From positions 1 through 22,966 of IMG/VR virus record IMGVR_UViG_3300025293_000932: a DNA stretch of 22,966 nucleotides. The stretch is one strand, 5' to 3'. The position numbers and the translations under genes were made by a program. Positions 2,593 through 17,739 of this stretch are shown one piece after another. Below the pieces are notes generated by a model. It was not told the origin of the DNA, did no database searches, and saw nothing but the letters and a program-made list of their open reading frames with translations. The stretch comes from a virus. Each line of letters starts with the position of its first letter. Position 1 is the stretch's first letter.

Positions 2593-2840
2593 TGGCAAAC
2601 AGAAGTATTTATACAGAAGCTGCGCTGGAACTTGCAGCGGAACACTTACAGATGCGGAGAGAATCGCAGAAGATGGCGAAAGACGTCATACCTTTTGGCG
2701 AAGAGAAAGTAAGTAAGGCCAAGCTCCAGAGAATGCTTGCAGATAATCCTACCTTGCGGAAAACAATGCTCCAGAACCCTGCAACAAGGGAACGAGTCAT
2801 TGATATGTACCGCAGGAAGGGAGCAAACGATGCCGTTTGA
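2592..2840 (+). CDS. Small helical protein of unknown function
   Basis: An 82-residue charged protein, predicted by eye to be almost wholly helical: an N-terminal amphipathic stretch rich in Glu/Ala/Leu, then KAKLQRMLADNPTLRKTMLQ and a basic C-terminus. Its ATG overlaps the portal TAA by one base, so it is translationally coupled, and its own end overlaps the next gene by 11 bases. I do not recognise a family. Between portal and a large ejected-type protein it could be a head-completion or chaperone factor, but this is inferred from place only. Confidence 0.75.
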   Translation: MANRSIYTEAALELAAEHLQMRRESQKMAKDVIPFGEEKVSKAKLQRMLADNPTLRKTMLQNPATRERVIDMYRRKGANDAV

Positions 2841-4563
2841 TGGCCAGCTCAGAAGAGAAAACGGTAGATGGGAATACTATATTGCCAGCCCTGATGAAAG
2901 TGGGGAAATCATAGGATGGATTGCCATTTCGGATTTGCCGGGAATTGGTATTGCTGTTAGTCGTGAATTAATAGAAAAAATGCAGGATTTTCAATCCGTT
3001 TCCGGTGGTCAGGGAATGCAGACCCTCACGGATTGGGATAACAAACCGTGGGATTGGCCAACCTTAGTAGGGGCCTCTCAAGAAGATCCGCGTGCCGGGA
3101 GTATCGATCAGCGTTATGAGGTTCTTTTTGCTGGGCCGGAAGGAACATCGCTTACCGTTGACGCATTAGCTAAGGCTGCTGCTGCTGCTACTACTAACCG
3201 AGGCTTTCGCGAAGAGGATAAACCTGAATGGTGGGAAGCGGTAAAACCTATGTCTGGGCCGTGGACTGAACTCGGCAAAATTGATGGGGAGTTTGATCAA
3301 TTTACTGCTACCACTGAATTGAAAAATGCTTGGGATATGTACCAAACACTCTACCCAGAAGAAGCATCAGAAGCAAAAGGACCGGCTAGTGCTAATGCCT
3401 ATTTGAATCAGCAAATGGCTACTGCATATCAAGACTATGATAATGCTATAGCAGCCGGAGATCAGGAAGAGGCTGATAGGCTTTATGCAAAAATCTATAG
3501 ACTGCAAATGGAGAAACAACAACTTGCTCGTATAGGAGAGACTGAAGAAGCGCCTCAAGCAGCCCCCAGAATGACACTTGATCAGGCTATCGATGATGCG
3601 ATCCTGTCCGGTGATACAGCCAGGGCATCAGAACTGATTGCAGCCAGAGACAGATCTGAGGCCGGTAGCGGAATGACGAGAAGTCAGGCAATACAATATG
3701 CGGCTCAGTTTGCACAAACATCAGATGAATTTGACAGGATGCTTGCTGCAATAACACAGCAATACCAGCCACAACAACCTGCCGGGCCAACCCCAGAGCA
3801 ACTACGACAACAGCGCTTGGCTGATATTAGACAGTATATTCAGCCAGCACCCTTCCCAGGTGGGCCACCAGGAACCGGTATTCCTACGCCACCACTTACC
3901 GCTACTGGACAGGTAGCTACACAGCAAATCATTCCACCCCCACTTCCAATCCAAGACGATCCCTTTGCAACAGGAACTGCTACCACTGAACCGGTTCGAC
4001 AAGGGGTAGTCCCGGGAGAACCCTTTATTTCTACTCCTGAAGAGGTTACAGAAGATCCCTCGTTAGGTTTCTATGCTTCAGGACAACCCTTCGATCCCAA
4101 ATTAGCGAGAACGAGAGATATACAACTTTCTCCCGGAGGTGTTCCTATTATTCCTGTACCTGCGGGAACTAAATTCGCAGAAGGAACGGCTGGGTTTGCT
4201 GGAACTTATGATCTCAGTGGTATGCCGAAGTCACAGAATCAGCTTGCTATCGATGCTGAACTTAAACGGCTTAAAGAGATACAGGCACTGCATACTTCAG
4301 AATCCGGTACAGGCTATACCAGCCTCTATGGAGGCAAAATAGATCCTGTGATGGAAGCAGAACACAACAAGCTGCTCCAGAACCAATGGGACAGGGATAA
4401 CCCAAGGCTTGTAGCGCAGCGACAACAACAACAGACCGGCGCACCACGTTTTGGAAGCGGGAAACCGTTTGAGCAGACTCTTATGAATATAAAACAGGGC
4501 AGAACGCAGCGTAAATTAAGTTCGCAAAAGGCAGGACGAACATTTAAATTCGGCTTGTCATAG
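2830..4563 (+). CDS. Gln/Pro-rich probable virion protein, unknown function
   Basis: 577 residues starting at ATG 2830, chosen because AGGAAGGGAG lies 8 nt upstream; an in-frame ATG at 2737 would overlap the previous gene by about 100 bases. The first ~60 residues look like a small beta domain (NGRWEYYIASPDESGEIIGW). After this come a poly-Ala/Thr run, helical segments with Asp-Gln repeats (about residues 190-320), and a long Pro/Gln/Gly-rich, probably disordered region (about 310-440) containing PGGPPGTGIPTP. That motif resembles the portal tail and the linkers of the next gene. The C-terminus is basic. No enzymatic motif is seen. By eye the first part of the gene is richer in A/T than the portal gene. 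It lies 8 bases before the giant gene and probably works with it, perhaps as an ejection or internal head protein. Confidence 0.75.
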   Translation: MPFDGQLRRENGRWEYYIASPDESGEIIGWIAISDLPGIGIAVSRELIEKMQDFQSVSGGQGMQTLTDWDNKPWDWPTLVGASQEDPRAGSIDQRYEVLFAGPEGTSLTVDALAKAAAAATTNRGFREEDKPEWWEAVKPMSGPWTELGKIDGEFDQFTATTELKNAWDMYQTLYPEEASEAKGPASANAYLNQQMATAYQDYDNAIAAGDQEEADRLYAKIYRLQMEKQQLARIGETEEAPQAAPRMTLDQAIDDAILSGDTARASELIAARDRSEAGSGMTRSQAIQYAAQFAQTSDEFDRMLAAITQQYQPQQPAGPTPEQLRQQRLADIRQYIQPAPFPGGPPGTGIPTPPLTATGQVATQQIIPPPLPIQDDPFATGTATTEPVRQGVVPGEPFISTPEEVTEDPSLGFYASGQPFDPKLARTRDIQLSPGGVPIIPVPAGTKFAEGTAGFAGTYDLSGMPKSQNQLAIDAELKRLKEIQALHTSESGTGYTSLYGGKIDPVMEAEHNKLLQNQWDRDNPRLVAQRQQQQTGAPRFGSGKPFEQTLMNIKQGRTQRKLSSQKAGRTFKFGLS

Positions 4564-4571
4564 GGAGAAGC

Positions 4572-7500
4572 ATGGCTAACGGGAGAGATACAGTCCCCAT
4601 TCAGACCCCTGAGTATCTGCGGTTGAGGGCGCTTGCTGCACAAAAGAAAAAACAGGCGCAACAAATCCCCGGTCCTTTTGGGGGTGTAGCTGAACGCCGT
4701 TACCAGATGATCCCCCCAAAGTATCTTGAGCGCATGAGTCCAAGACAACGGGAAGAAGCAAGAAAGCGTCTTGAGGAGAATGAGCGTAGACGCGCAGAGA
4801 TACTTGCTCAACAGGGTGGGGTCTATCCACCACAACAACAACCCGGATTTATTCCGCGAATGATACAGAAGACAATACCGCCAGCGATTGAAAGATTTCA
4901 TCGGTATGCGGGGAGACCGTTAGGGGCGATAGGAACCGCGCTTACAGCCCCCTATGGAACAGCAGTAGTAGGAACCGGAGCGCCTGCTATGGGCGTAACT
5001 ACGCCATCAATACCTGTCCTGCCTGATCAGAAAGTACTTGAGAAGATCTTAGAAGACTATGGAGGAGAAATCCCTCTTCCTAAAACTGCGGAAGCATTTC
5101 GTAGTGCAATTGCTGCTATCCAGACAGAAAAAGGGCTTGACTGGGATGCTGCTGTGAGTGCATTTACAGATGCACATGATGTGCCGGAAGGATATGTTGG
5201 AGCAATGGAAGGTTTGCTTTCCCTTTTTATTCCACCTGGTGCTTTTGGCCCTCTTGCTGGAATAACCAGAGGAACTGTTAAAGCTGGTGTTGGTGGCCTT
5301 ACGAAGATCGCTCCACCTACTGCCAGAGTATTGGGTGCAGGGCTTAAGGCTCCGGCATACATGGCAATGGGAACGGGTGGCGTTGGCGGCCCTCGTATGC
5401 CTAGATTCGGGCCTGGAAGAGAAGTTATTTCTCCTCCAACACCACGAGGTGATGACGATGCCATAAGAGCGCTTAAAGGAATGGTTAAGCCAGAAGGCGT
5501 AAACCAACGTATGTATGACGAACTAGTTGAGTATGCTCCCACATTGTCTGATGCACAATTAGACGAAACTATAAGTGCTTCAGAAAAGATGATAAGAGGA
5601 CTAAAGAGACAACCTGGTGCGGCAACTGATCCTCGGAAGGCTATAGCAATCCATGAACTGGGGATCAGAATAGCTAAAGCTGAAAAAGCCAGAAGGGTTG
5701 CAGCACCCACCGCAGCAATCCCCACGCCCGGTGCAATGGCCGTTGACGAGATGATACAGGACGGCAATAAGCTGGCCAAATGGATGCAGAGGACTGGAAG
5801 GCAACGTGGATTGCTTAGTGGGAAAGCGTTCAACATAGAAGAACTCAACATGGTCCGACGGGGTGTTCGTGCAGAGAAAACCGGCAAGGGTGTCGGGATT
5901 AAAGATCGGAAAAGTGTATTCGACGCACCTATTGGGATCCCTCTGACTCCCGATGAGGCCCGTATCCTTGGTGCAGATTATCATGTATTTAGAGAATGGG
6001 CGAGTAAAGCAGGACTGAGAAATACAGACCCTCAATATGTCAGTGATGCTCTTTGGCTTGCCGAGGCGAAAAGAATTGGCCTTAATGCAGAAGAGTTGAT
6101 ACGGAAATATCCCGACTCATTCCCAACAAGGAAAGCCACACCCCCCGTCACGCCCGTTGCTAGGGCTGGTATGCAAGCTCCCACCCACGCACAGTTACAG
6201 GATGCTATCTCTGCTATGCCAGAGAATGAGTTAAATGAAGTGATAGCCTTAGTGGCTGATGACGTATTTGAGATTATTGGTTCTGGGTCGGGAAAGGCAC
6301 AGCGATGGGGGGTTTACTATAAGGCAAAATACGGCGACGAGGGCGTTCCGAGAGGGTTAAGGTTCCTTGGTTCCACAACGGCACGTTTTGGCGGCGATAA
6401 GACAAAGGCCGCTGCCGAATCGTTTGCCCGTGAGTTTGGTGTACGTAAGAAACTGAAGGAGGCTGTTTCGGAGCGAAATCCAAAAATTTTCGATGCTTTA
6501 ATCCGAACAGGCAGGTTTGATGTCCCCACACCCCCCGTCACGCCCGTTGCTAGGGCTATTGTTCCTGACGACCCTAACAGGTATGGCATACGTCCGAATG
6601 ACCCTGAATATCCGCCGTTACGCCAACCTAATGGCGCACCAGTACGAGGCACACCGATTTCACCAGATGATGCCAGAATCCCAGATGAAGTCTATCACGT
6701 AACGACTAATGCTCCTGCCGTGAGGTCAACGGGGCTGTTGAGGGCTTCAGGAGAAGGTGGTCTTGGTGGAGATGAACTAGACGCAATAGTCTCATTTACT
6801 ACAGATAGGGGAATAGCTAACCAGCTTGCTGATGACTTTAGATTGGCATCTGAAATTGCCAATATGCCAGAGGACTCATTGGCTATTGGCGAAAGATTAC
6901 TAAGGCAAGCAACCGAAGAAGGATGGGGCGAATCTCCGGGCTTCAGCAGGCTTGTTGCACTTGCCAGAGAGGGCAAGCATAAAAGAATAGCAAAAGATTG
7001 GCTCGTTGATTACTTTGGGCAAAGAGCGGCAGCAACACAGAAAAGAAACCCAATACTTTTAGGTGATGCCGAGAAGTTCAGGGGTTGGAACCCTGCTAAT
7101 ATCGAAGTTATACCAGTCCCAAAAACGTCTTTGCGTACCGGGGCAATGGTTACTGATTTTGACGACGCTTTTGGGATCGACGAATTTGGCATAGGACTTA
7201 AAGAGATTCGTGTCTACGGGGATGTGCCTGTCACCCCCACCAAAGCAATCCCCACGCCCACTGCTAGGGCTGCTGCACCTGTCGATACAATGGTCAATGA
7301 TATAGCAAACAGGTTAGGCCATCAGGTAAAGAGAAATCCTCTTAATAATAGAGAATGGGTATTCACTGATGAGGCTGGGGAACTTACGATCAAAGCTGAA
7401 CTTGCTCCATCTTTAGGAGATCCAAATAGAATACGGCTTGTCTCTATGGCATCTCCATCGAAAGGTCTAGGAAATGCAAGCAGGTGGATGGATGAACTTG

Positions 7501-10500
7501 TAAGTGTTGCTGATGAAAATAATATTGCACTTGAATTAAGTGCCGTGCCTTTTGGAAGAGCAAGTGGAGGGCTAACTAAGCGGCAACTTAAAGCATTTTA
7601 CACAAAGCGTGGATTTAAGTTTGAGCAGGGATCAGACAGTGGAGTAAGAGGGGCTAGGGGTCAGACATTAGACCCTTCCGTTACCACTACAGGAAGATTT
7701 CGATTGACCTTTGGGGACGAAGCTATAGCAGCGGAACAGGGAATCCCCACGCCCGGTGCTGCAATAGCAAAAGAGCCTTGGCAGATGACTAAGGCAGAGT
7801 TTAATGCTGCCCGTGTAACGAAGCAGCAGATGTTAGACCGTGGCGCGGAAGGAAATCTTAATAGTGCCGTAGAAATACAAATGCCTATCAGTCGCATAGA
7901 GGGGCTAGAGCCTATTCCAGCAATGGAAGGCGGTTATGTGCCTGGGAGGCTAATAACACAACCAGTTGAGATTAGGTATGAAAAAGACCTAGACCAATTT
8001 ATTTTGTATGCGGGGAATCATCGAGTCCAACAAGCTAGAATCAATGGACAGAGTACAGTTCCTGCATTTGTAGAGGGCATTAAGTATGAAGACTTGAAGC
8101 AAGCAATCCCCACGCCCACTGCTGCAAAAACTGTGAAAAAGATACCGGCTAAAAAACAGGCAAAGTCATCTGATGCACCTTCTTCTGTTAAAGAGGAATT
8201 ACCTGAACGATTTGTAAAACCAAATAATCCTGTAGTCACTGAAACACCGCCGCCAAAGGCAGCGCAAGGGCCGCCAGAGCCTATGGATGACGGGAACTTC
8301 AACAGGAATAATTTCGGAGGGGATGGGCCGCCACCCAAAACGACCGCAGAACCCCCAACCGGACCGGACGATATAGTTCTTGACCTGACGGACACTAAAG
8401 AACTGGAAGAACTTATTTTCACTGACGATTATTTCCGGAAAATCATACAGTTACCGGGAATGCGTCAAACCTTGGGACATTCCAATCCCGCTGGTGCAGC
8501 TCGTACTCCTATGGAGAAATTTGCTGCGCTGCGTACGTGGTTGATGAACGAGTCAACAGAGCGAACTATCAGGGCAATGGGTCATATCGATAGGCACGCT
8601 GAGGACACGTTATTTGGGCCGTTCACTAAAGAGCGTCTGATCAAGAAAGGCCCGCTTAAAGGACTAGGTCTTAACGATATCCGGACATACCCGAAACGGT
8701 ATGCGAAAAAACTTACTCCGGAACAGACTGAATGGATAAAGCAGATGGACGAGATTGAAAGAAGCAAACTGGCTTCTCTAGAGCGTAATGAGGTAGAAGT
8801 CAACCTGCTGGGATTTGAAGAAGGTGGCCAGTATGCTGGACGCCGATGGATGGGTAAGTTCGATAATGACGGGAAGTTGATAGATATCGGATATGTTGGT
8901 GGGGGTAGCCGTAGGAAATTGCCGCCATTTCTTGAACCTCGGGTGCTTAAATCTCAGTCTGAGGGTTTCAAGTTAGGATTTCAGGCTATGAGTGAAACAG
9001 AAGCCTTGGCTCTCAATGTTCAGGGTCATTACACGCATATCATCGATAAGAAGATGTATGACTGGCTTATATATCACTCAGGGATAGGTTATAGAGATGT
9101 TGGAATCTCTGAAGGAATGAAGCTGGCTGATGCGGCTGTAAAGATGAAAGCGGCAGCAGGTAAAAAGGCCATTCTGGCTCTTCAGCGTGCCATGAGAGGC
9201 GAAACGATCCCAACAGGAACCGTCAAGTCTATTGAACGGGTATTCCCCCAGCTTAAAGGGAAGGTCAGAGCGCCAACAAAAGTCTTGGCACAGGACGTCA
9301 TTAAGGCTGCGAAAGAACTGCAAAAGCCTAATGTTGTTCTTGAAGTTCCAAAGATAGGGGCAATTAAGAAAGTCCAGAAACTATTAGAGGAAGCCTCAGA
9401 GCGGCTTAGTCAAAACCCAGCCGATAAGGCTCTCAGACGCGAGGTATCGAGACTGCAAAAAAGTCTTGGCTTTATCCGCTACCGGGTAGGTCTAGGAAAG
9501 CCACTGGAACTCATCCGAGTTCCGGCAAAGGAACTGCGGAAGATGGCTGTTGATTCGCTACAGGAAATGCTTGACGCAATCAGGGGTACACCTACCAAAG
9601 TCGAGGGATATAAAACACTACAATACAGAGGCGGATTACTCAGTGATCTCCTCGTAGAACAAAAAAAGACAAGCAAATCTATAGCCGATTATAAGAAAAA
9701 GTGGGGAGAGCCGGGGCGTGAAGAAGCATACCTCCAAATTCCCGGAGGAGAGAGAAGAATTCTGACTGGGCCTGACGCAAAGACGATAGCAATACGCATG
9801 AACAATATATTCACCCCAGCGGAAAACAAGTTCTACAACATTCTTGCGTTTGCTAATAAGTTCAATGTTCTTTTCCGAGGGCTTCAGTTAACGGCAGACG
9901 GTGGAGTTGGACTGATCCATCTTGCAATACTTGCTGGTGCAGAACCCAAAATATGGACAAAAGCGATGTGGGCTTTCCATAATGAATTGATCCGCTCTGC
10001 TGCCAGTAAGTCAGTCACAAACAGGATATATAAGCAACACGCGGCTCTTCTGAACAGATGGCCTATTGTGCAGTTATCCGAACAGGGTACAGAGGCAACA
10101 GCGGCATTCGCAAGAGGACAGCTCTTAAAAGCAAGGTTGCCTGCCGGTATTCCCCTGATAGGCGGCAGACAGGTACTGGCGTTACCAGATAAATTACTTC
10201 AGCCGTTCAGGAATGCGTTTAACTTTGCTATGGACCAAGCAGCAATTGACCTGATTAAAGCCCTTGAGCATCTGGCAACAACTCCTAGATTGAAGGCAGA
10301 AATTTCACGGTACATAAATAACGTCCGAGGTCTAGGCTCATCTAAGCAGATCGGCGTAGGTAAATGGATGCGTTTAGCCGAACAAAGCGTAATGCTTGCG
10401 CCTAACTATAACCGTTCAATAGTGGCTATTTTTTCCTCTCTTTTCAGGGGTGGAATGGATGCCAAGTTAGCCCGTCAAGCATTAATGCGTGCAACATTTG

Positions 10501-11990
10501 CGTTCATGTTCGTTACCGTTGCCATTGGTCTGGCGCGTGGCGATACACTCAGAGAATCTCTTGATCGCTTCAAGCTTATGAGAAAAGACCCAAAAACCGG
10601 GGAATTAAAATATAACTCTGAATTTATGCTGTTTGATCAGTGGGGGCAAAGAATAGGTGCTGGGTCAAAAATTCGTTCAGTGCTTGCATTGTTAGCCACA
10701 GTGACAACATCCCCAGAGGATCTGCTGGAATCCGGAATGAGAAACCCCGCGTTCCGATTTATGCGGGCTAACCTCGCTCCGCTTCCTTCCAAGGCAACTG
10801 ACCTTATCAGTGGCCGCAATTACATAGGAGACCCAACCAGAGATGGGATGGTCAGCCTGTCAAGGGAAGTTATTGCGCCTACTTTCCTGCCGTTATGGGC
10901 ATCCTCATTGGCACTTGAGGGCGGAGACCTTAAAGGACGGTTTTCACGCGGAACCGCAGATTACTTTGCCTTGAGAGCATACCCACAAGACGCACATCAT
11001 AAGTTTGTTGCGTATGCGGAAGAGCAAACGGGGAAGTCCTACGACGGGCCATCTGAAGGTTGGCTATCCGCACCACCGTACTACTGGTCATGGGGCAAGA
11101 TGGAGTGGATAAAAGAAGAGAAGGAAAAGATCACGCCGTTAGAATTGAAGAAGCTTAAAACTATTGATCCGGAAGGAAGCCGCCTCTGGGAAGCTGCGGA
11201 GCTGGACTGGGCGAGGCGCGATAAAATAAGCCCGGTTATGAGGGAATTTGACAGGGTTGCAGATATCCGAATGGATAAGCTTCAGGACGCTGCGGATGAA
11301 GCAAGAAGAACAGGTAATACTCCCGGATTGAGAGAGGCTATTGTTAAAATCAATTCAGCGTATGGAGCGCAGTTACAGGCCGTACAGAGTAATCCTGAAT
11401 TTGAAAAGGCACTCGATGAGCTTTCAAAAATTCATAAAAACGAGATACCGGAACAAGAGGCAAAACGCCTGTACAACGAAATTGTTAACGATCCTGCGCT
11501 GTTAAATGAATTGCAAGAATATGATTTTGACGAGCGAAACCGCAGGTTAGACCTTCTTGAAAAAGAGGTTGGCGAGGAAATCTGGAACGGCATTCTTGCA
11601 GAAAAGCAACTAGACAGGCAGAGATTCGATCCGCTGGTTCAGCTATGGTATGAGGATAAGGAAAAACTTAAATCGTACTGGGCGTTGCCAGAGGGTGAAC
11701 GGCGCAGGAATGAGCGCAGGAGAAACAAGGGAGCAATCGATGTAATTATGATCCGGTGGTACGGGCTGAAGCCGGGACTGTCAAAGGCAGGGTTTGACGA
11801 ATATCGGCGTATTCAGTCCGGGAAGGCTCCCGAGGCTTCTGGGGCTGCAACAACACTTTTAGATCTTGTAAGGCAACAGCAAGGACAGCCCATGCCAGCG
11901 CCAACACCTGAGCCTACGCCGGGTACAACACTTTTAGACCTTGTAAGACAGCAGCAACAAGAAAGAGAACCTGTAGGAGCGAGGGAATAA
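4572..11990 (+). CDS. Giant modular 'polyvalent' ejected protein (2472 residues)
   Basis: The start at ATG 4572 has GGAGAAG just upstream. Residues 1-380 hold a Lys/Arg/Gln-rich N-terminus and a Gly-rich hydrophobic stretch near 208-270 that could insert in a membrane. Residues 381-1184 are five modules set apart by six Pro-rich linkers of the AIPTP/TPPVTPVARA type: two unassigned (389-521, 533-651), one ADP-ribosyltransferase-like (663-883), one GNAT-like (903-1056) and one ParB/sulfiredoxin-like (1064-1177). A Lys/Pro-rich hinge leads into about 1250 helical residues with a hydrophobic segment at 1974-1989 and an RNYIGDP motif, reminiscent of the C-terminal regions of large polyvalent proteins known from phages and conjugative elements. 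Such proteins are usually carried in the capsid and enter the cell with DNA. The C-terminus carries TTLLDLVRQQQ twice. Catalytic activity of any module is inference. Lying between portal and scaffold is an unusual place for so large a gene. Confidence 0.85.
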   Translation: MANGRDTVPIQTPEYLRLRALAAQKKKQAQQIPGPFGGVAERRYQMIPPKYLERMSPRQREEARKRLEENERRRAEILAQQGGVYPPQQQPGFIPRMIQKTIPPAIERFHRYAGRPLGAIGTALTAPYGTAVVGTGAPAMGVTTPSIPVLPDQKVLEKILEDYGGEIPLPKTAEAFRSAIAAIQTEKGLDWDAAVSAFTDAHDVPEGYVGAMEGLLSLFIPPGAFGPLAGITRGTVKAGVGGLTKIAPPTARVLGAGLKAPAYMAMGTGGVGGPRMPRFGPGREVISPPTPRGDDDAIRALKGMVKPEGVNQRMYDELVEYAPTLSDAQLDETISASEKMIRGLKRQPGAATDPRKAIAIHELGIRIAKAEKARRVAAPTAAIPTPGAMAVDEMIQDGNKLAKWMQRTGRQRGLLSGKAFNIEELNMVRRGVRAEKTGKGVGIKDRKSVFDAPIGIPLTPDEARILGADYHVFREWASKAGLRNTDPQYVSDALWLAEAKRIGLNAEELIRKYPDSFPTRKATPPVTPVARAGMQAPTHAQLQDAISAMPENELNEVIALVADDVFEIIGSGSGKAQRWGVYYKAKYGDEGVPRGLRFLGSTTARFGGDKTKAAAESFAREFGVRKKLKEAVSERNPKIFDALIRTGRFDVPTPPVTPVARAIVPDDPNRYGIRPNDPEYPPLRQPNGAPVRGTPISPDDARIPDEVYHVTTNAPAVRSTGLLRASGEGGLGGDELDAIVSFTTDRGIANQLADDFRLASEIANMPEDSLAIGERLLRQATEEGWGESPGFSRLVALAREGKHKRIAKDWLVDYFGQRAAATQKRNPILLGDAEKFRGWNPANIEVIPVPKTSLRTGAMVTDFDDAFGIDEFGIGLKEIRVYGDVPVTPTKAIPTPTARAAAPVDTMVNDIANRLGHQVKRNPLNNREWVFTDEAGELTIKAELAPSLGDPNRIRLVSMASPSKGLGNASRWMDELVSVADENNIALELSAVPFGRASGGLTKRQLKAFYTKRGFKFEQGSDSGVRGARGQTLDPSVTTTGRFRLTFGDEAIAAEQGIPTPGAAIAKEPWQMTKAEFNAARVTKQQMLDRGAEGNLNSAVEIQMPISRIEGLEPIPAMEGGYVPGRLITQPVEIRYEKDLDQFILYAGNHRVQQARINGQSTVPAFVEGIKYEDLKQAIPTPTAAKTVKKIPAKKQAKSSDAPSSVKEELPERFVKPNNPVVTETPPPKAAQGPPEPMDDGNFNRNNFGGDGPPPKTTAEPPTGPDDIVLDLTDTKELEELIFTDDYFRKIIQLPGMRQTLGHSNPAGAARTPMEKFAALRTWLMNESTERTIRAMGHIDRHAEDTLFGPFTKERLIKKGPLKGLGLNDIRTYPKRYAKKLTPEQTEWIKQMDEIERSKLASLERNEVEVNLLGFEEGGQYAGRRWMGKFDNDGKLIDIGYVGGGSRRKLPPFLEPRVLKSQSEGFKLGFQAMSETEALALNVQGHYTHIIDKKMYDWLIYHSGIGYRDVGISEGMKLADAAVKMKAAAGKKAILALQRAMRGETIPTGTVKSIERVFPQLKGKVRAPTKVLAQDVIKAAKELQKPNVVLEVPKIGAIKKVQKLLEEASERLSQNPADKALRREVSRLQKSLGFIRYRVGLGKPLELIRVPAKELRKMAVDSLQEMLDAIRGTPTKVEGYKTLQYRGGLLSDLLVEQKKTSKSIADYKKKWGEPGREEAYLQIPGGERRILTGPDAKTIAIRMNNIFTPAENKFYNILAFANKFNVLFRGLQLTADGGVGLIHLAILAGAEPKIWTKAMWAFHNELIRSAASKSVTNRIYKQHAALLNRWPIVQLSEQGTEATAAFARGQLLKARLPAGIPLIGGRQVLALPDKLLQPFRNAFNFAMDQAAIDLIKALEHLATTPRLKAEISRYINNVRGLGSSKQIGVGKWMRLAEQSVMLAPNYNRSIVAIFSSLFRGGMDAKLARQALMRATFAFMFVTVAIGLARGDTLRESLDRFKLMRKDPKTGELKYNSEFMLFDQWGQRIGAGSKIRSVLALLATVTTSPEDLLESGMRNPAFRFMRANLAPLPSKATDLISGRNYIGDPTRDGMVSLSREVIAPTFLPLWASSLALEGGDLKGRFSRGTADYFALRAYPQDAHHKFVAYAEEQTGKSYDGPSEGWLSAPPYYWSWGKMEWIKEEKEKITPLELKKLKTIDPEGSRLWEAAELDWARRDKISPVMREFDRVADIRMDKLQDAADEARRTGNTPGLREAIVKINSAYGAQLQAVQSNPEFEKALDELSKIHKNEIPEQEAKRLYNEIVNDPALLNELQEYDFDERNRRLDLLEKEVGEEIWNGILAEKQLDRQRFDPLVQLWYEDKEKLKSYWALPEGERRRNERRRNKGAIDVIMIRWYGLKPGLSKAGFDEYRRIQSGKAPEASGAATTLLDLVRQQQGQPMPAPTPEPTPGTTLLDLVRQQQQEREPVGARE
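5715..5734 (+). repeat. Linker repeat 1 in the giant gene
   Basis: First copy of the linker DNA family. It holds the core aatccccacgccc, encodes AIPTPGA, and opens the first module. The same core recurs at 7245, 7741 and 8103, always in the same reading frame and always at a module edge. Confidence 0.85.
6136..6167 (+). repeat. Linker repeat 2: first copy of a perfect 32-bp direct repeat
   Basis: These 32 bases recur without a mismatch at 6526-6557, exactly 390 bases (130 codons) downstream, so the frame is preserved. They encode TPPVTPVARA. Together the two copies bracket one module like a cassette; recombination between them would remove or swap it without a frameshift. Confidence 0.95.
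6526..6557 (+). repeat. Linker repeat 3: second copy of the perfect 32-bp direct repeat
   Basis: Identical to 6136-6167. It closes the unassigned module (residues 533-651) and opens the ADP-ribosyltransferase-like module. The neighbouring bases on both sides differ between the copies, so the identity is confined to the linker. Confidence 0.95.
6558..7220 (+). other. Candidate ADP-ribosyltransferase-like module inside the giant protein
   Basis: Residues about 663-883. The pattern is EVYHVTT (Tyr708-His709), a GLLRASGEGGLGG turn, VSFTTD (741-745) and, near the end, KEIRVYG with Glu878. This order (His on strand one, a Ser/Thr-Phe-Thr strand, a late Glu before a beta strand) resembles the H-Y-E type ADP-ribosyltransferase / Tpt1 fold. 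The alternatives are an inactive ART relative or another beta-rich domain. The call is by eye and needs a profile or structure search. Confidence 0.45.
7226..7275 (+). repeat. Linker repeat 4 (composite of both linker types)
   Basis: This linker joins both DNA motifs: a 'gtcacccccacc' piece like the 32-bp repeat, then the aatccccacgccc core (from 7247), then 'tgctagggct' shared with the 32-bp repeat. It encodes VPVTPTKAIPTPTARA and sits between the ART-like and GNAT-like modules. Confidence 0.85.
7278..7740 (+). other. Candidate GNAT acetyltransferase-like module inside the giant protein
   Basis: Residues about 903-1056. SPSKGLGNASRWMDEL (Gly965-Leu-Gly967) resembles the acetyl-CoA pyrophosphate loop and following helix of GNAT enzymes. 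NNIALELSAVPFG fits the next strand. LKAFYTKRGFKF (Tyr1010, Gly1014-Phe1015) is the classic last GNAT motif. The usual Arg/Gln at the first position of the loop is not present, so activity is uncertain. Confidence 0.5.
7740..7760 (+). repeat. Linker repeat 5 in the giant gene
   Basis: Carries the aatccccacgccc core followed by ggtgct as in linker 1, and encodes GIPTPGAA. It divides the GNAT-like from the ParB/sulfiredoxin-like module. Confidence 0.85.
7764..8102 (+). other. Candidate ParB/sulfiredoxin-like module inside the giant protein
   Basis: Residues about 1065-1177. The diagnostic part is FILYAGNHRVQQARINGQ, with Gly1148-Asn-His-Arg1151, followed by STVPAFVEG. Families with the ParB N-terminal / sulfiredoxin-like fold have a Gly-Asn/Glu-His-Arg motif at this place, then a helix and a short strand with 'vP'. 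Relatives include nucleases and nucleotide-hydrolysing or phosphotransfer enzymes. A preceding QPVEIRYEKD strand fits. Substrate unknown. Confidence 0.55.
8103..8123 (+). repeat. Linker repeat 6 in the giant gene
   Basis: Carries the aatccccacgccc core followed by actgct as in linker 4, and encodes AIPTPTA. It closes the modular part; a Lys-rich and Pro-rich hinge follows to about base 8390. Confidence 0.85.
11850..11957 (+). repeat. Duplicated C-terminal peptide motif, two 33-base copies
   Basis: Copies at 11850-11882 and 11925-11957 encode the same 11 residues, TTLLDLVRQQQ, separated by a Pro-rich spacer at the extreme end of the giant protein. The copies differ at three bases and all three are silent (GAT/GAC, AGG/AGA, CAA/CAG), which points to selection on the peptide. 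A short helical docking or packaging signal is a reasonable guess. Confidence 0.9.
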
Positions 11991-16704: not shown

Positions 16705-17739
16705 ATGCCTACACCTTCTTCAAACCATAGTGGATTTGCCAATCGGGCAGGAAATGTCCGAAACGGCTCAGATCTTTCTATATTTTATAATGGAACAGAA
16801 TCGCTTCGGCTCGACGATACTACGTTGACGTTTCCTACTTCTAATATTGCGTTTACGCAAGCATCTGGAAGCCTTGTTCTCAACGAGGCCGGGAACGATG
16901 TGGACTTTCGCATTGAGAGTGATGGCAATGCCAACGCATTTGTCATAGATGCTGGAACGAACACGGTAGCCTTTGGGTCTGCTGTACTCGGTGGGGTTGC
17001 GTTCCGGATGGAATGCCCTGCCAATATCCCAATCGATAACGCACGCGGTCTCGTCCATTTTGGAAATACTGTACCAAATGACACATCCGATTCCGGCACT
17101 ATTGCTCAGATGGCTCACATAGCTATCAGGGCGGTGACCCCAACTGCAACAAATGCCAGAACCTACTCGCTTGCCGCATCTTTGTACATTGATGGACCTC
17201 CGGTAGCGGGTACTAATGTCACTCTAGCCACTACAAATGCATTCTCGATCCACTGTGATACTGGGCGGGCTCGATTTGACGATGGAATCGTAGTTGGTCC
17301 TTTAACTTCAGCGGATGCGTCAATTGATAATGCAACCAACGGGTCTGGCACTACTACCATCTACATTGGAAACCAATCTATCACCACTTCATCTGATTCA
17401 CGGGTGAAGACAAACATCACCCCCTACAAGGACAGTGCGCTTGACCTACTAAATCAGGCTAACTTTGTAGAGTTTAATTACAATCTTGAGGGTGGTGGAG
17501 AGGCTGATGGATACGGTCCTAACGGTAGGGGCCGATACGTTGGGATGCTTGCTCAGGAGACTGTTAAGTGGGCTCCTTGGGCTATCAATGCAGGAGCTGG
17601 GCTGAACTGTCCCGAGTGTGTGGCAGGTGAAGCGTGTGATGAACACTCAACCTGGCACGTTGAGTACCAGCACCTTGTTCCATTACTTGTGAAGGGTATC
17701 CAGGAGTTACGAGCTGAAATCGATCAGTTAAAGAATTAA
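16705..17739 (+). CDS. Tail fibre/spike with C-terminal peptidase S74 chaperone domain
   Basis: 344 residues. Residues 20-90 hold fibre-type repeats (SDLSIFYNGTESLRLDD, DFRIESDGNANAFVIDAGTN), and 100-220 more beta structure. From about 225 comes the intramolecular chaperone: TTSSDSRVKTNI with Ser230 and Lys235 as the expected Ser-Lys dyad, then YVGMLAQE and a terminal YQHLVPLLVKGIQELRAEI helix. In this family the domain helps the trimer fold and then cuts itself off between the Ser and the following Asp (here Ser230-Asp231). An unusual insert has Cys302, Cys305, Cys311 and His314, a possible zinc site. There is an 84-base gap upstream with an AAAGGA site. It probably binds the host surface. 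Confidence 0.9.
   Translation: MPTPSSNHSGFANRAGNVRNGSDLSIFYNGTESLRLDDTTLTFPTSNIAFTQASGSLVLNEAGNDVDFRIESDGNANAFVIDAGTNTVAFGSAVLGGVAFRMECPANIPIDNARGLVHFGNTVPNDTSDSGTIAQMAHIAIRAVTPTATNARTYSLAASLYIDGPPVAGTNVTLATTNAFSIHCDTGRARFDDGIVVGPLTSADASIDNATNGSGTTTIYIGNQSITTSSDSRVKTNITPYKDSALDLLNQANFVEFNYNLEGGGEADGYGPNGRGRYVGMLAQETVKWAPWAINAGAGLNCPECVAGEACDEHSTWHVEYQHLVPLLVKGIQELRAEIDQLKN

Follow-up and report, generated by a model that had tools for sequence, protein, structure and literature searches.

The adhesin gp38 of the T-even phages reportedly undergoes recombination between conserved glycine-rich motifs, a phenomenon that Tetart, Desplats and Krisch (cited in PMC12529663) are said to have described in 1998. 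The locus presented here resembles that gene in having short repeated motifs within one gene that would work as recombination points, at which segments are swapped in frame. In gp38, however, the segments are small receptor-binding loops, whereas here they are entire modules, belonging to a giant protein unrelated to gp38 and found in diverse phages. Profile searches gave no tail-fibre match for this protein, which is therefore not classed as a tail-fibre adhesin of the gp38 type.

The polyvalent proteins encoded by phages and by conjugative elements (Iyer et al., 2017; PMC5512222) have architectures that vary between phages, and the open reading frame (ORF) studied here is similar to them: it is a giant multi-domain ORF located near structural genes, with a ParB-like module and other enzyme-like modules. 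A Pfam search of the ORF returned no family at E<=1, and thus no LPD domain was recognised, which is why the protein is called polyvalent-type and is not filed as a member of the class. The word “linker” has no occurrences in that article (PMC5512222), and cassette-type recombination is raised there for one kinase locus only. Mosaicism within phage proteins, a feature also of this locus, has been described as a shuffling of fragments that is still under way (Smug et al., 2023; PMC10684548), in a text from which “polyvalent” and “linker” are absent. With respect to the enzymes, phage Red-type recombinases efficiently recombine sequences that are 22% diverged (Martinsohn et al., 2008; PMC2327257). 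Such homeologous recombination is a plausible enzymatic route for a linker crossover that joins diverged copies, although it concerns general mosaicism, without repeated linkers in one gene. In a limited search of the open-access literature, no paper described repeated DNA at the linkers of polyvalent proteins.

Repeated linker DNA within a giant ORF

The window, that is, the whole stretch of DNA that was analysed, is a virus record of 22,966 bases in which one ORF encodes a protein of 2,472 amino acids (Table 1). The capsid-like neighbour of this ORF has a weak Pfam match only. No recombinase was recognised in this 23-kb fragment, and no dedicated integrase of the integron or shufflon type among those of its ORFs that were searched.

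The six linkers of the giant ORF, rich in Pro, Ala and Thr, were described in the first-pass annotation as near-identical; the repeats are real, but they consist of two linker types and a hybrid, not of six near-identical copies. The core AATCCCCACGCCC, attributed to four linkers, is indeed found exactly four times in the window (at 5717, 7247, 7742 and 8105), always on the + strand and in frame, and when up to two mismatches are allowed there are five matches against 0.63 expected, a number that none of 100 shuffles reaches. The second type includes a 32-bp repeat whose copies lie 390 nt apart and are perfect in the window, as had been stated, but not in the close relative L002. Linker 4 does combine both types, with the AIPTP type joined to the ...GCTAGGGCT end of the other. 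The stretches of identity are short (16–32 nt), and the GC content of the linkers is 61–72%, against 44–49% in the modules. The claim that all linkers keep the frame also holds: their register spacings (426, 390, 714, 495 and 363) are each divisible by 3, and an in-silico deletion of the 390 nt between the 32-bp copies preserves the frame and introduces no stop.

Table 1. Features of the giant ORF, in window coordinates
Feature	Position	Strand	Remarks
Giant polyvalent-type ORF	4572..11990	+	flanked by portal-like and capsid-like genes; also in relative L002
Linker 1 (PTAAIPTPGAMA), AIPTP type	5706..5741	+	
Module M1	5742..6135	+	homolog search: none found
Linker 2 (TPPVTPVARA), copy 1 of 32-bp repeat	6136..6167	+	
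Module M2	6168..6525	+	homolog search: none found
Linker 3, copy 2 of 32-bp repeat	6526..6557	+	two substitutions in relative L002
Module M3	6558..7235	+	shares 47–54% identity with a module of L256/L258 and L260
Linker 4, hybrid of both types (PTKAIPTPTARAAA)	7236..7275	+	
Module M4	7276..7736	+	probably GNAT-like acetyltransferase (low-confidence model)
Linker 5 (GIPTPGAAI)	7737..7764	+	3-bp indel and a substitution in relative L002
Module M5, ParB-like, starts with KEPWQMT	7765..8099	+	55–63% identical to modules in L256–L260
Linker 6 (AIPTPTAAK)	8100..8127	+	
C-terminal backbone	8128..11987	+	distant homolog in L205, 24%

Amino-acid similarity alone is insufficient to explain the identity of the DNA, since the repeat pairs exceed those of synonymous-codon shuffles: five exact in-frame pairs of at least 15 nt are observed, the maximum in 1,000 shuffles is two, and just 45 of the 1,000 contain any such pair. 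Given that TPPVTPVARA appears twice, the probability that the same codons are used is approximately 1.7e-6. A scan of viral contigs with the linker DNA gave 112 matches, which is about chance by our own estimate, and four copies were present only in L002.

The annotation placed all the linkers at module edges, and for linkers 3–6 this agrees with the limits of the M3 and M5 homologs in other phages. Homology to M3 begins at window residue 661–664, just after linker 3, and ends at 884–889, at linker 4, while homology to M5 begins at residue 1066–1068, just after linker 5; clear identity stops at linker 6, and some alignments continue weakly beyond it. Linkers 1 and 2 are placed by composition and position only, because no homolog of M1 or M2 could be detected. 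M1 does weakly match a small phage protein, and these matches were rejected as probable chance. The ParB-like character of M5 comes from a match to phrog_3264 (E=5e-4), and the YHVTT motif of M3 invites the guess that this module may be ADP-ribosyltransferase-like; the structure model of M3 is of low confidence, and a fold search with it gave no useful match.

Three further observations may be added. The ORF at 3–5732 of L205, the distant backbone homolog, has a PWQMT module inside the backbone, and the window has the module before it. A near-identical DNA repeat lies in the C-terminal part of the giant ORF (11850–11960), where TTLLDLVRQQQ occurs twice, 75 nt apart and with ~33 nt per copy, accompanied by an APTPEPTPG spacer. 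Finally, the C-terminal half of the ORF at 16705–17739 resembles an ORF of L093 (29%) and is similar to the end of a tail-fibre chaperone, the match being weak.

L002, the only close relative found, is 99.88% identical to the window over 16,127 bases, and searches with the portal, the terminase and the full-length protein returned only this contig, or distant terminases unaccompanied by the giant protein. Its module set and order are those of the window, and hence the check proposed in the first-pass annotation, the search for other modules between the same linkers, finds no such case in the window's own lineage. The two sequences are separated by 17 difference events, four of them within the 196 nt that the linkers occupy (P=5e-5, or P=0.004 when counted by cluster, 2 of 8); eight differences lie in a 191-nt tract that runs from linker 5 into M5. 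In L002, linker 5 is one codon shorter and the 32-bp pair is imperfect. The differences thus appear to be concentrated in linkers 3 and 5, and, as they are few in all, this is suggestive only.

Module exchange in other phages

A search with M5 matched L256/L257/L258, L259 and L260, and M3 is also present in L256/L258/L260; L256 and L002 come from one and the same metagenome. No other window protein tested had a match in these phages (L256–L260). The window order is M3-M4-M5, whereas M5 precedes M3 in the other phages that carry both; several domains are therefore found in one polypeptide, and at least M3 and M5 are separable and recur elsewhere in other orders. The linkers that surround them in these phages belong to different sequence types, which recur inside each protein and are unrelated to the window linkers. 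Different modules between copies of the same linkers, which the annotation had proposed to look for in relatives, do occur in these phages. One of them, L259, has an ORF of 2,528 amino acids (4233–11816) with five copies of the linker GLVPQSGDW.KPIRWIRP, in which M5 lies between two different modules.

One exchange with a resolved crossover was found, and its other arrangement is known from one contig (L260). L256 and L260 are ~87% identical across the 6.6 kb that leads up to the gene. In the gene itself, L260 has an N-terminal linker, two modules, an internal linker and M5, and L256 has an N-terminal linker followed by M5. Along the linker of L256, 27 informative sites match the N-terminal linker of L260 and the next 28 match its internal linker, with one switch (probability 1/C(55,27)=2.6e-16) that is located within 6 nt. 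This left junction is the same in three contigs (L256, L257 and L258), with ~0.1% differences between them. A block of 494 nt is identical (L261 ~10869–11362) and comprises the 3' part of the long linker, M5 and the EVEVVQAPE linker, with 132 of 132 codons the same in M5 and its linker; on the right the block stops where the EVEVVQAPE linker ends, and the modules beyond it differ. The identical M5 block stands beside a flank that is 13% diverged, and for this reason simple deletion was rejected as a full account of how L256 came by its arrangement; an exchange between phages is indicated. The long linker measures ~140–190 nt, the crossover sits in ordinary diverged homology, and the L256 phage contig encodes RecA/UvsX-like and RuvC-like (resolvase) proteins. 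Recombinant breakpoints in repeated motifs are thus seen for L256/L260, and none was observed in the window phage, for which one close relative was compared.

The L256 phage has linker-like copies in another two of its genes (L261 14971–16644 and L262 9371–11710), one topoisomerase-I-like and the other polyA-polymerase/HD-like (the second match is weak), and linkers may be shared between genes in this phage.

The codon pattern of PW[QE]MT was found at 119 loci, most of them large ORFs with the motif, often after an Ala/Pro/Glu-rich stretch. Of 78 motif ORFs of at least 700 amino acids, 25 contain in-frame DNA repeats of at least 15 nt, against 7 of 54 control ORFs with the same minimum size, an excess that is only indicative, given that the control ORFs have a lower mean length (50,556 against 140,108 amino acids in all). 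The window ORF ranks first among the motif ORFs for such repeats; several others have repeats of 25–55 nt, a number of them adjoining module starts. In an independent family, the genes of L250, L252 and L211 are 84–89% identical: a nucleotidyltransferase module (Pfam) between PEVKPEP linkers is present in one of them and absent from two, another module is replaced after a common PKETQ linker, and LPD38 is present in L250–L252. At nt ~1924 of the L250 gene a truncated methylase-like module runs straight into the middle of another module, with no linker at the breakpoint, which implies that shuffling is not confined to linkers.

Explanations for the linker repeats

It is likely, in our view, that the giant ORF encodes a polyvalent-type protein made of independent modules set on repeated Pro/Thr/Ala linker DNA, and that the modules have been moved by recombination. 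The repeated DNA would provide patches of homology inside the ORF, at which phage recombination (homologous or homeologous, of the Red/UvsX type) could delete, add or exchange whole modules in frame, and phage recombinases that tolerate divergence probably act there. As judged from the alignments, in the relatives identical linkers bound different modules, one linker is chimeric and an M5 cassette has been exchanged recently, while the window itself has repeats at the DNA level, a conserved frame and module edges for M3 and M5. The proposal that modules are swapped, lost or gained by recombination is thus borne out in relatives, by the M5 exchange and by the presence/absence case; in the window phage the same swapping may take place now or may have done so in the past. 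Hybrid linker 4 may be a relic of recombination, and the modules may be effectors delivered with the virion. Several observations weigh against this reading: the unchanged module order in L002, the shortness of the window linkers beside the long linker of the L256 phage, the L250 breakpoint within a module, the failure to recognise a recombinase in the window, the small number of differences from L002, and the single resolved exchange, whose other arrangement is represented by L260 alone.

There is about an even chance that these are ordinary protein linkers, in which only a flexible Pro/Thr/Ala spacer is under selection and the DNA is copied by duplication along with the modules; recombination there would be incidental, tolerated since linkers accept sequence change. 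This explanation overlaps the preferred one on the events and differs from it on purpose, and the two likelihoods do not sum to one. The Pro/Ala/Thr-rich composition agrees with it, as do the breakpoint inside a module in L250 and the many other polyvalent-type ORFs whose Ala/Pro/Glu linkers are not repeated in the DNA (of 71 ORFs of at least 900 amino acids, 43 lack any in-frame repeat of 15 nt). The exchange that was observed at linkers is compatible with it as well, and the only disagreement is whether linkers are maintained as recombination sites. The notion of a built-in domain-shuffling system goes too far, as it implies selection for recombination, when protein-linker function and phage enzymes suffice.

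The linkers could also be sites at which a phage protease cuts the giant protein into separate effectors, the repeats reflecting its specificity. Processing of polyvalent proteins by peptidase domains has been proposed (Iyer et al., 2017; PMC5512222), and the adjoining ORF (2827–4560) weakly matches a head-maturation protease (E=3e-4); specificity, however, would conserve amino acids and not synonymous codons, the two linker types differ in sequence, and the linkers of the phages that share M3 and M5 are unrelated in sequence, all of which makes this improbable. Less probable still is an assembly artefact, produced by contigs that share repeats, as the source of the linker repeats or of the exchange. 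Every sequence is a metagenome contig, assemblers err at repeats and the L260 arrangement is found once, but L002 carries the linkers independently, the chimeric junction recurs in three slightly different contigs, and a simple mis-join does not yield a 494-nt identical block between phages that are 13% diverged. The linkers are GC-rich islands within a gene of lower GC, which might point to an RNA structure or a regulatory or attachment site; yet no linker folds better than its shuffles (z -0.7 to 1.1), none has an Rfam match, and the sequence is not common to other viruses beyond chance, L002 excepted, so that this last explanation has very little to recommend it.

Possible module trading in giant phage proteins

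A broader idea, tentative and rather unlikely as it stands, is that the repeated linker DNA of each lineage is homogenised and retained for the in-frame trading of effector modules, across the polyvalent class. If true, the trade in linker cassettes would also take place between unrelated phages of one habitat.

Domain shuffling in giant phage effector proteins had previously been inferred from architectures, and here a joint is resolved at the nucleotide level. It offers one concrete route, in which a crossover in repeated linkers carries a complete module between diverged phages. GC-rich repeated linkers would make module borders readable from DNA alone, even when no domain is recognisable, and the gain and loss of effector domains by phages thus becomes a question that can be tested directly.
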